A DNA stretch of 64,000 bases from a candidate division TM6 bacterium GW2011_GWF2_43_87 (GTDB lineage Bacteria > Babelota > Babeliae > Babelales > Babelaceae). The stretch lies in the NCBI GenBank assembly GCA_001000065.1, contig LCGZ01000001.1, positions 124,001 through 188,000 of the forward strand, written 5' to 3'. Below, piece by piece: positions 37,671 to 41,510 of this stretch. Position 1 is the first letter of the stretch, and each line of letters opens with the position of its first letter. The notes under the pieces were generated by a model that was given only the letters and a program-made list of their open reading frames with translations, ran no database searches and was not told the DNA's origin. A program made the translations under genes and the position numbers.

Positions 37671-38609
37671 TTAAAAAAATATAAGAAGTCCAATAGAAAC
37701 CAGAAAGCCATAGATAACATTGGTATCAATCAACGTCTGTGCCGTTATACTGGTCTTAGACAACAATGAGTACTGGTCAGGATGACGCGCAATCTGTAGA
37801 CATGCCGCCGAAGCCGTCCGACCAGAACTAATCCCCAATCCCACAGTACATAATCCTATGGAAATAGCAGAGGAAATAGACAAAATCCCCTCAATAGCCT
37901 GAGCCCTAAAGAGAAGCATCAAAGAAATTACTAGGGCAAACAAAACAGGCGTTTCAATAATAGCCAAACTCATAAGCGCAAACGAAAAAATACGACTGTA
38001 AGCTCCGCGATTTATCCCAACACTCTCACACGTACTTGCACCAAAAAAAGCAACTCCCAACGCAGGACCTATAGAACCCAGTCCCAGCGCTAGCCCACTC
38101 GCAAATAGTTTTAGCCCCACAGCCATTTCAACTGCACCTGCAGCATTCGTTAGCAAGAACATACCAATCATCAAACCAAAAATAGTAGGAGTTTGAGCTA
38201 TAGAAAGCGTAAGAAAGAGAAGATACGTAATTCTTTGAGTAAAGAGAGGTTGACGACTAACCGCTTCAAACGCCCGTCTTATGGGATATGAAGATGCTAA
38301 TCCCACAACGCATGCAGGTATCGCTATCGCAAAAGCCGCACCCAATTGGCCAAAAGAATGCGCCAATGTAACCGGCATATCTTTCACAATCATAAAACAG
38401 ATCAACGTTGAAAAAAGCGCTGCGGTCTCTGTCAAAGCCAATGCCACCATCAAAATTTTGCCCAAAGATCCTCGAACCGACGGTTGAATATTCAACGCAT
38501 CGATAGCCGCCTTACTAGACAGAGCTTGTCCAATCGCCGTTCCTGCTATAGGAAAAGTTATTGTAACCACTGCCGCAAGATAATGTACCACGACAACTGA
38601 ATTTATCAT
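37671..38609 (-). CDS. atpE: ATP synthase F0 c-subunit, four fused hairpins
   Basis: 312 residues made of four c-subunit-like helical hairpins. Each has a small-residue helix, a polar loop and a second helix with the ion-binding position: Glu61 (ALTETAALF), Gln139 (SIAQTPTIF), Glu219 (AIIETPVLF) and Asp295 (LIDTNVIYG). The spacings are 78, 80 and 76 residues. The loop of hairpin 2 has the typical RQP and hairpin 4 has RHP. So three of four sites keep a carboxylate. Ordinary bacterial c-subunits have one hairpin of ~80 residues; concatenated ones are known mostly in V- and A-type rotors. It follows atpB by 24 bp, with AGGAAG upstream of ATG 38609, and the frame has no break. Confidence 0.88.
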   Translation of the reverse strand: MINSVVVVHYLAAVVTITFPIAGTAIGQALSSKAAIDALNIQPSVRGSLGKILMVALALTETAALFSTLICFMIVKDMPVTLAHSFGQLGAAFAIAIPACVVGLASSYPIRRAFEAVSRQPLFTQRITYLLFLTLSIAQTPTIFGLMIGMFLLTNAAGAVEMAVGLKLFASGLALGLGSIGPALGVAFFGASTCESVGINRGAYSRIFSFALMSLAIIETPVLFALVISLMLLFRAQAIEGILSISSAISIGLCTVGLGISSGRTASAACLQIARHPDQYSLLSKTSITAQTLIDTNVIYGFLVSIGLLIFF

Positions 38610-38633: not shown

Positions 38634-39485
38634 CTACTTTTCCGGCGACGCATGCGATGCATGAGCAGACTCATCACCACTTTGAAGAACCATTGATATA
38701 TAAGTCAAGCTAAGCGTAGAAAAAACAAATGCCTGAATAAACGCCTCAAACAGACCAAAAAAGAGTGCCACAATAAGGTTTATACCCGTAACAAGAGCAA
38801 GCGTCTGCCCAAGCCACCCCATATTAGACGCGGCCCCCTTCAGCAACATAGATATAACCGAGCCACCAAAAATATTCCCAAAAAGACGCAATGAAAGCGA
38901 CATAAGACTCGACAACTTACTAAGTAATTCTAGAGGAAGCGAAAAACAACCTATAATAAGATTCAAAATTCCCTTAAATACAGCTAAAATAACCGTAAAA
39001 AATGTAATCTTACCACCAGGAAAAAGCGTCAAAGGCATCTTAAAATATTCCAAAAAGAACGAAACGGGACCATGCGCCCGAACCGCTTCTGTTTGCGTAT
39101 AAAAAAAAGAAATCACCCCTAATGCAAAGGTTGTACTAAGATCTTTGGTCGGCTCTTCAAGCCCTGGAATCACCACCAATGCGTTACAGATAGCTATGTA
39201 AATAAAAAGGGATGCAACATAATAAAAATAAGGTGCATGGAAACGACCTACCCCCTGAACTACCATGCTCTCAAAACTACGAAGAATAACGACCACAATA
39301 TGGCCGCCAACCGATTCTGGTCGTTGCAACAACCACCTACCAACCAGTGCAAAAACTAAAACAAATCCTAATGCCGCCCAGGTGCAAATCAAAGTCTCTT
39401 TATTAAATGCAAAAAAATCAGATGTTATGCCAAAAGGCGCCAGCACATTCCATTTCTCAGCATGACCGAATAAACTGTCGCTCAT
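38634..39485 (-). CDS. atpB: ATP synthase F0 subunit a
   Basis: 283 residues, five to six transmembrane helices. The essential stator arginine is present in SLRLFGNIFGG (Arg200), and the last helix has EAFIQAFVFSTLSLTYISM with its conserved Gln. This identifies an F-type, not a V/A-type, subunit a. It conducts ions past the c-ring. GGGGGAT precedes ATG 39485. The gene is between an 84-residue membrane protein and the four-hairpin c-subunit; b, delta, alpha, gamma, beta and epsilon are not in this window. Confidence 0.94.
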   Translation of the reverse strand: MSDSLFGHAEKWNVLAPFGITSDFFAFNKETLICTWAALGFVLVFALVGRWLLQRPESVGGHIVVVILRSFESMVVQGVGRFHAPYFYYVASLFIYIAICNALVVIPGLEEPTKDLSTTFALGVISFFYTQTEAVRAHGPVSFFLEYFKMPLTLFPGGKITFFTVILAVFKGILNLIIGCFSLPLELLSKLSSLMSLSLRLFGNIFGGSVISMLLKGAASNMGWLGQTLALVTGINLIVALFFGLFEAFIQAFVFSTLSLTYISMVLQSGDESAHASHASPEK

Positions 39486-39520: not shown

Positions 39521-39775
39521 TTAAAACCTTCGGCGCACCAAAAAAGTCCCAACTACTACAAGGACAAAGAGCGTCACCATGAGTATACTCCTGGGCAATG
39601 GTGAATTCAATACCACAAAGAGAAAAAGTGCCGCAGAAATAACACGCATACCACTAAAAAGTCCACGGTAAAAGGGCGAAACAGAGGTGGGATCACTAGG
39701 AGAAACATAGGCTGTTGAACAAAGAATCCCCGCAACCAACGGAAGAAAAAAAAGTTCGATAAACCATACAACCAT
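39521..39775 (-). CDS. Small two-to-three-helix membrane protein preceding atpB
   Basis: 84 residues from ATG 39775 (AGGGG seven bases upstream). It has three hydrophobic stretches: VVWFIELFFLPLVAGILCST, ISAALFLFVVL and ILMVTLFVLVVVGTFLV. Its position just before atpB is where AtpI or other ATP synthase assembly proteins are coded, and it may have that role, but no sequence signature of AtpI is evident. A hairpin in its leader covers the ribosome binding site. Confidence 0.6.
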   Translation of the reverse strand: MVVWFIELFFLPLVAGILCSTAYVSPSDPTSVSPFYRGLFSGMRVISAALFLFVVLNSPLPRSILMVTLFVLVVVGTFLVRRRF

Positions 39776-39783
39776 AACGACAC

Positions 39784-39801
39784 CCCTCAAAAAAATGAGG
39801 G
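39784..39801 (-). promoter_or_regulatory. Hairpin sequestering the ribosome binding site of the atp gene group
   Basis: On the minus strand CCCTCA and TGAGGG pair around six T. The 3' arm contains the GAGGGG that serves ATG 39775, so folding would hide it from the ribosome. Confidence 0.5.
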
Positions 39802-39865: not shown

Positions 39866-41299
39866 TTAACCCAACTTCTTTATACCACGATATTTCCAAT
39901 ACTCATGGATAACCGCGTTTGACCCTGTCACTACAACAAGACCATGCCGCTCATCCACGGTTGCTTTTGCAGCTTCAAAAGCTTGTGCAAAAGAGACAAA
40001 TGCCGTAGCTTTCATTTTCTTACTCTTGATATCACTGACTACATGCTCTACGCTCCAGGTGGCATCTTCGCCGTTCCCAGGAGTAACCGAGTTATCAACA
40101 GGACATACAAAAGCTTGGCCTGCAGTCTTCTTAAAGAAATACCTCAGAGCCTTAAGAAACTCCTCACTATGCAACGTATTCTTACTGGCGCCTATAATGA
40201 CGGTAAGACCCTTTATAGGACGCTGATAGTGGAAGAGACGAATTCCAAGAAGCAAATTTTCAAGCGCATCAAGATTATCAGCGCTATCTAACAGAACCGA
40301 AGGTTTCTCTTTATCAAAAAGCTGAAACTTGGATGGCAGAGTATTTATATTCTCTTTCCAAAACTGATCGATTGTCTTTTTAGGATTTAGACGAGCAAGC
40401 CGCTTCGCTTCTAAAGTAGGTCTGCCTCGTTGACCCTTCTGTTTAATTAACAAAGAATCGTTAACGATAGTAGCATCACTTGCAACAGAACTATTCATAT
40501 AAAGCGACGCAATGCGCTCTGCAAGAGCAGCACAACGTCCATGAAGTTGCTCAAATGGATAGACCAATGGTGATAGTTTACGAATAGGCATTGCCCATTG
40601 ACCACCCTGCGCCACGGTAATATCTTCCATCATCTGGAGGTGCGCTTTAATCTGATCGCCAGAAACCACGTGCGTCCCAGACTTTACAACGCCGACCATC
40701 TCAACCAAAGAAGCTTTAAGCTCCTCAGCAGTGACGCCGACCTTATCAGGGGTTACGCGGGTAATTGCAACCACTTTTGCGTTACAAATATTAACAGGAT
40801 TGTGTGCACCACCCTCATGGGATTCAAGCACAGCTACATCAGCCTTCTGCTCTTCAAAAAACAGCAACGACATCATAGTCAAAATTTCACTGCTATTGCA
40901 GCTCAATCCCAACCGGTCAACTGCATCTATAACAGAGTTGCCAAAATCCGTGAAAGATTTATTCGGAATATAGGCCTGATTAAGCGTTATACGCTCGTTA
41001 TAAGTTAGAATATGGGGTGCAATAAAGGCACCTACAGCAAGCCCTTCTGACTGCAAAAGCTTAGTAGCAAAATGCGCCGTTAGACTCTTGCCATTTGTTC
41101 CACAAATAATAATGGCATCTCTTTTTTTAGAAATAGAACCAAATTCACAGTCAAGAAGTGTCATACGCTCAAGCGTCTTATTCACATCACCGGTTTTCCA
41201 ATGCTCATTGAGATAAGCGACTACCTCTTGGTAGTTCCGCTGCTTTAAAGGCGTCGAGCTCTGCTCGCGACTCTCCCTCTTGATTCGAGATGTATCCAT
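39866..41299 (-). CDS. Divergent FolC-like Mur-ligase-superfamily protein
   Basis: 477 residues from ATG 41299 (GGAG seven bases upstream; TTG 41311 is a poor alternative). Resembles folylpolyglutamate/dihydrofolate synthase: P-loop CGTNGKSLTAHF, then SPHILTYNERI-like APHILTYNERI, and a C-terminal LDSADN-x-ENL and GASKN block. Two family hallmarks are altered: the GGRLDATN region reads EGGAHNPVN, and the later NI-DHxxxLG/KAGI stretch reads VTPDKVGV/MVGV. The catalytic metal and carbamylated Lys sites may thus be lost. It may act on another substrate. Precedes the atp genes by 91 bp on the same strand. Confidence 0.75.
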   Translation of the reverse strand: MDTSRIKRESREQSSTPLKQRNYQEVVAYLNEHWKTGDVNKTLERMTLLDCEFGSISKKRDAIIICGTNGKSLTAHFATKLLQSEGLAVGAFIAPHILTYNERITLNQAYIPNKSFTDFGNSVIDAVDRLGLSCNSSEILTMMSLLFFEEQKADVAVLESHEGGAHNPVNICNAKVVAITRVTPDKVGVTAEELKASLVEMVGVVKSGTHVVSGDQIKAHLQMMEDITVAQGGQWAMPIRKLSPLVYPFEQLHGRCAALAERIASLYMNSSVASDATIVNDSLLIKQKGQRGRPTLEAKRLARLNPKKTIDQFWKENINTLPSKFQLFDKEKPSVLLDSADNLDALENLLLGIRLFHYQRPIKGLTVIIGASKNTLHSEEFLKALRYFFKKTAGQAFVCPVDNSVTPGNGEDATWSVEHVVSDIKSKKMKATAFVSFAQAFEAAKATVDERHGLVVVTGSNAVIHEYWKYRGIKKLG

Positions 41300-41510
41300 T
41301 CGATTCTCCAAAATTCATGATCGTTACGTTTGTTTAGGTAAAAGACACTGCTTCTGTCTAACAAGACTCTTATTTAGTCTTATTAGCATTAATTTACCAG
41401 AAAAAATAGAAACGTCAAACTTCCAATAGGAAATTCTGAGGTTTAAACCCTCAATTTTTGAATTAAAAGATCAGTAATTTTCGCATATAATGCCTATTCC
41501 TAGACAAAAA

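Follow-up and report, generated by a model that had tools for sequence, protein, structure and literature searches.

A four-hairpin c subunit is encoded alongside a single-hairpin c subunit and the sole subunit a of the F-type ATPase in Candidatus Dependentiae

In an F-type ATPase, the rotor's complement of ion sites determines the ion-to-ATP ratio, and the ring is usually assumed to be symmetric. The closest described relative of the rotor genes considered here is the Na+ F1Fo-ATPase of Acetobacterium woodii, whose c genes lie in one operon. Its fused subunit, also called c1 (18 kDa), consists of two hairpins, shows Gln where hairpin 2 would have its carboxylate and forms a mixed ring with the c2/c3 subunits (PDB 4bem, for which one chain of c1 and nine of c2 are listed); a separate single-hairpin c exists beside the fused one. 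The NtpK subunit of the Enterococcus hirae V-ATPase (PDB 2bl2) also has fused hairpins and a lost carboxylate, but it is V-type, has two hairpins and forms a ring of NtpK only. Chains of more than two fused hairpins are found among archaeal c subunits, with three in Methanocaldococcus jannaschii and thirteen in Methanopyrus kandleri (PMC2359735). These are A-type, and the hairpins of M. kandleri all keep their ligands and need no separate c. A single-chain c-ring with mutated ion sites has been engineered from Bacillus PS3 (PMC8809890); among experimental models it comes closest to an F-type ring with some sites altered, although it is artificial, holds the whole ring in one chain and carries E-to-D changes that reduce activity.

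Here, we describe an F-type c subunit of four fused hairpins (c4), known from genes, that shares the F-type character, the fusion and the hairpin 2 Gln of the A. woodii c1 protein. Its source organism belongs to Candidatus Dependentiae (TM6; Babelota), a phylum whose members live inside protists and in which c4 is accompanied by a separate single-hairpin c subunit, hereafter c1. No earlier report of the Dependentiae pair was found in the open literature, which is not proof of absence.

The c4 gene and the dispersed genes of one F-type ATPase

The c4 gene occupies complement(37671..38609) of the window, the 64,000-nucleotide stretch of DNA that was analysed. An AGGA ribosome site precedes the ATG at 38609, from which 312 codons plus a stop codon at 37671 run uninterrupted. 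PF00137 (ATP-synt_C) matched four stretches of the 312-residue product (whole-protein E of 3.4e-29 in the Pfam search), and an AlphaFold2 model of the single chain, with no ring, had a pLDDT of 96.9 and eight long helical spans. The best sequence match in the PDB was the fused c1 of A. woodii (4bem_J; E of 1.6e-23), which was also the best fold match to the model and the only one under 0.001, with NtpK second. The Acetobacterium precedent named in the original prediction is supported. Alignment of the hairpins showed the carboxylate of the second helix in hairpins 1, 3 and 4, as Glu61 (codon 38427..38429), Glu219 (37953..37955) and Asp295 (37725..37727). It is absent from hairpin 2, where Gln139 stands in its place (38193..38195; all on the minus strand). 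The unbroken four-hairpin frame, the four ion-site residues and the one position lacking a carboxylate in this organism are as originally proposed.

Subunit a (283 residues; 38634..39485, minus strand), the only one in the genome, precedes c4 with a gap of 24 nucleotides. Its assignment as clearly F-type was borne out by the match to PF00119 (E of 8.7e-34) and by the essential Arg200 in SLRLFGN, which is conserved in 93/93 relatives. Directly upstream of a lies a gene for a membrane protein of 89 residues (39521..39790, minus strand), itself preceded by a folC-like gene (39866-41311). A membrane protein of ∼80-110 residues with like size and topology was seen directly before a in most relatives across the phylum. 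Neither the 89-residue protein nor its relatives gave a match above cut-off in Pfam or NCBIfam; one relative gave weak, sub-threshold matches to ATP-synt_I (E of 0.017) and AtpR (E of 0.29). The small protein is possibly a divergent ring-assembly factor of the AtpI/AtpR kind.

The genome that contains the window (G000) comprises 1.13 Mb in four contigs and yielded five c hairpin matches, four in c4 and one in c1. The original prediction had named a separate single-hairpin atpE elsewhere, with the fused copy unexpressed, among the findings that would count against it. Such a gene, c1 (82 residues; G000:C1:350514-350753), does exist, as the first gene of a c1-b'-b-delta-alpha series ∼190 kb away from c4; the idea that the fused protein is the genome's sole c is ruled out by it. 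Here b and b' are named by position and make-up, a profile match, and a weak one, being obtained only for b'. Beta adjoins epsilon on contig 4, and gamma is at C1:247729. In kilobases, the loci are C1:161-164 (folC-small protein-a-c4), C1:248 (gamma alone), C1:347-351 (the c1 series, behind a nucleoside-kinase-like gene) and C4:91-92 (beta-epsilon, beside a HerA-like ATPase). There is one a, one gamma and one epsilon, and by locus one alpha and one beta. With genes assigned to a, b, b', alpha, beta, gamma, delta and epsilon, the system is genuinely F-type, as had been claimed, and G000 encodes one complete F-type ATPase that is dispersed over at least four places and has two kinds of c. In gene content, a fused c, a single-hairpin c and one a are encoded together, as for a mixed ring of the A. 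woodii kind; the partner a and the F1 subunits of c4 are F-type, which sets it apart from a V/A-type K subunit.

Distribution of the two c subunits and loss of the hairpin 2 carboxylate

A scan of the sequence collection with two peptide patterns taken from a ten-row alignment returned fused c subunits whose named records all belong to Ca. Dependentiae, TM6 or Babeliales; because only these two patterns were used, distant fused c subunits in other phyla may be missed. Hairpins of the c type were present in 100/101 genomes of the phylum, almost always as one short frame and one frame of ∼313-352 codons. The search of related genomes that the original prediction had called for yielded, with the window's own, 93 fused c subunits (92 from other genomes; 310-351 residues), each directly behind a on the same strand at a spacing of -122 to 72 nucleotides. 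Two in-frame TAG codons were counted within matched stretches, one in a c4 (G074:C17:82054-82266) and one in a subunit a (G064:C66:14698-15402). Subunit a was found in one copy in 68/68 high-quality genomes and was single in nearly all genomes, two drafts (G018 and G025) having a second, short fragment.

The c1 profile detected a separate single c in 96/101 genomes. Three assemblies without c1 (G053, G058 and G060) are also without alpha, the gene linked to c1, and loss of c1 from these genomes was for now rejected on that ground. Of the other two, G051 (66% complete) is without c1 and yielded no more than a fragment of F1, and G010 (70% complete) yielded no c of either kind. Relatives thus carry both the fused and the single c, not a one-hairpin c alone, and the c1 and c4 pair is phylum-wide. 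This universality, and the placement of the fused and single c in different operons, distinguish Dependentiae from A. woodii.

The position of Glu61 holds a carboxylate in 93/93 fused c subunits (E in 89, D in 4), that of Glu219 is E in 88 of 93, and that of Asp295 is D in 54, E in 38 and G in 1. By contrast with site 61, site 139 is E in 23 and lacks a carboxylate in 70 (Q in 60, M in 7, V in 2 and G in 1). Counted per protein, four carboxylates are present in 21, three in 68 and two in 4. A phylum tree was built from a plus c4, with the ion-site columns removed and rooted at the midpoint only. Of the 23 rows on one side of this tree, 22 have E139; of the 70 on the other, 69 have no carboxylate at site 139. 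Three changes are enough to explain the distribution. The window's c4 falls on the latter side, that of the EQED pattern. Two proteins sit apart from their surroundings: L053 (G076) has E139 within the Q clade, a possible reversal, and L094 (G049) has G139 within the E clade, a possible independent loss.

For c subunits in general, a carboxylate is ancestral. If this holds here too, a single early event within one half of the phylum accounts for the main loss at site 139; because the tree is rooted at the midpoint only, the choice between gain and loss rests on this argument. The lost carboxylate claimed in the original prediction holds for this organism but fails as a general trait, since 21/93 fused c subunits keep all four; as a trait of the phylum it is ruled out by the EEEE clade.

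On a tree of individual hairpins, c1 and hairpins 1, 2, 3 and 4 each formed one group (support of 85-99), the order of the groups being unresolved by the few columns available. Mean identity between groups was 22-34%. Given that the groups are separate, the four hairpins were fused before the sampled phylum diversified, and no homogenisation among them has followed.

Ion ligands at the inner and outer faces of c4

In the Na+ site of c subunits, Glu65 is held by Tyr70. The remaining ligands are shared between hairpins, Gln/Glu32 and Glu65 coming from one and Ser/Thr66 and a backbone carbonyl from its neighbour (PMC2359735, PMC3692424), and the Na+ motif of c reads Q...ES/T (PMC4320612). In E. 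hirae NtpK, Thr64 and Leu61 from the first hairpin meet Gln110 and Glu139 from the second within the same chain (PMC2359735). It is by applying this hairpin order to c4 that the intact half-sites are placed on its outer faces. The first interface then consists of an outer neighbour and hairpin 1 (Q28, E61). The three inner interfaces pair hairpin 1 (T62, F66) with hairpin 2 (S106, Q139), hairpin 2 (T140, F144) with hairpin 3 (V186, E219), and hairpin 3 (T220, F224) with hairpin 4 (S262, D295), and the last interface pairs hairpin 4 (T296, Y300) with an outer neighbour. A canonical Q or Y occurs in c4 only at the outer half-sites, the inner interfaces keeping part of the ligand set; once Tyr70 is counted, the full set can be assembled at the outer interfaces alone.

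The c1 of the same genome has Q31, E64, T65 and Y69, in which the Gln/Glu32, Glu65 and Ser/Thr66 set is complete, as it is in the majority of c1 proteins. Across the phylum, c1 has Q in 84/93, E/D in 93/93, S/T in 83/93 and Y in 78/93, whereas the outer hairpins of c4 divide these ligands: hairpin 1 has Q or E at position 32 in 70/93 and no Y, and hairpin 4 has Y in 88/93, S/T in 84/93 and no Q. On this pattern, c1 would supply exactly the halves that are missing from the outer sites of c4, although a second c4 would serve too.

These ligands appear to suit Na+ better than H+. Since c1 lacks Q and/or S/T in 13/90 paired genomes, Na+ is not assured, and the ion may differ between Dependentiae lineages. 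Both the Gln32 and the Ser/Thr66 ligands are lost from the c1 of six genomes, G016, G062, G019, G029, G052 and G078 (L039, L040, L221, L219, L183 and L232, respectively), which suggests a possible move to H+ in such lineages. In three of the six (G016, G062 and G078), the corresponding residue of hairpin 4 is Ala. A test for correlated loss of S/T did not reach significance: of 10 losses in c1 and 9 in hairpin 4, 3 were shared (Fisher p of 0.059, uncorrected for multiple tests and kinship), and covariation of these ligands was set aside as proof of a shared ring.

Composition of the ring and direction of operation

The observations are best explained if c4 is a real second rotor subunit of the sole F1Fo-ATPase, housed in a mixed c1/c4 ring of what is probably an ATP-driven pump; we put the probability of this reading at roughly 0.7. 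The gene, its phylum-wide conservation, the single a and F1, the co-existence of c1 and c4, the ligand pattern and the fold model are its sequence-based parts, to which the explanation would add the mixed ring, its copy numbers, the ion and the direction. A mixed ring is favoured because there is a single a and a single F1 and because c1 has been retained. In such a ring, c4 and c1 would turn together against the one subunit a, and the outer interfaces (c1 with hairpin 1, and hairpin 4 with c1) would rebuild the complete Q, E, S-or-T and Y set from both proteins. The inner interfaces would keep a partial set, with hairpin 2 lacking a carboxylate. With its inner sites partial and hairpin 2 blank, such a ring would carry fewer ions in each turn than the hairpins it contains.

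The full canonical ion site of c1 alone would also be compatible with a ring of c1 only, in which case c4 would be an accessory: a template or chaperone for ring assembly, a plug, or a leak or ion channel bound to a. The degenerate inner sites of c4 fit such a role, as does the position of its gene behind those for a and the small membrane protein, a region that frequently encodes assembly factors (AtpI, for instance). However, three or four carboxylates are kept in 89/93 c4 proteins, which a chaperone would not need, the fold and loops of c4 (RQP in hairpin 2) are of the rotor-subunit kind, and the fused, partly blank c subunits of known structure (4bem and 2bl2) are ring members. An accessory c4 is on these grounds unlikely.

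A ring of c4 only, with for example two copies (8 hairpins and, in this organism, 6 carboxylates) or three (12 and 9), is improbable. Its outer faces, hairpin 4 against hairpin 1, could close together and rebuild the full ligand set, and c4 is encoded with the sole a in all 93 cases. Against this, c1 would have to serve another task or an alternative ring, despite its retention in most genomes with near-canonical ligands and with the carboxylate intact in every one of the 93 read; it is encoded together with b', b, delta and alpha, and a separate complex would need a second a, which is absent. In placing ion binding at three of four rotor positions, the original prediction presupposes just such a c4-only ring. 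That assumption is not supported: the genome has a canonical c1 whose ion site is complete, as well as a single a and a single F1, which makes a mixed ring most likely.

That c4 is an assembly or annotation artefact, or a pseudogene in decay, can be dismissed: joined or collapsed genes, which it had been advised to check for, are excluded, because a four-hairpin gene recurs immediately behind a, on its strand, as 92 unbroken homologues. These come from independently assembled genomes of over 70 genera, single-contig assemblies among them (G004, G023 and G097), and their ion positions are conserved.

For the mixed c1/c4 ring, the direction of rotation can be approached through the setting of the enzyme. 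The proposal of an ATP-import lifestyle was supported by the finding of ATP/ADP translocase-type (TLC) proteins in 98/101 genomes of the phylum; the 1.13-Mb G000 genome has seven PF03219 matches of this type. COX1, for heme-copper oxidase, was found in 1/101 genomes, as a fragment at a contig edge. Electron transport is depleted in the phylum (PMC7507113), and the description of Chromulinavorax destructans infers reverse operation of its ATP synthase (PMC6561590). Since these parasites import ATP and are without a heme-copper oxidase, the enzyme would probably work for the most part as a pump that spends ATP to move ions. A blank site would then reduce the number of ions that each ATP moves, and a steeper gradient could be pumped against. 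The proposed c1/c4 ring would resemble that of the eukaryotic V-ATPase, which is mixed, contains fused c-type subunits (c, c' and c'') and is ATP-driven; the V-ATPase ring differs in its V-type character, its two hairpins per subunit and the lack of a single-hairpin partner.

On balance, we lean towards the broader view that the phylum has fixed an asymmetric F-type rotor, in which c1 and c4 would share one ring with four non-equivalent sites in fixed order, one of them blank in half of the phylum. The ratio of ions to ATP would in that case not be set by the number of hairpins, and the enzyme would be an ATP-driven, possibly Na+, pump. For the question of why sites were lost from V-type pumps, the EEEE and EQED clades offer a natural experiment in which the two states can be compared directly, and a rotor of c1 and c4 would bear on how the membrane potential is kept up in obligate intracellular bacteria that import ATP.
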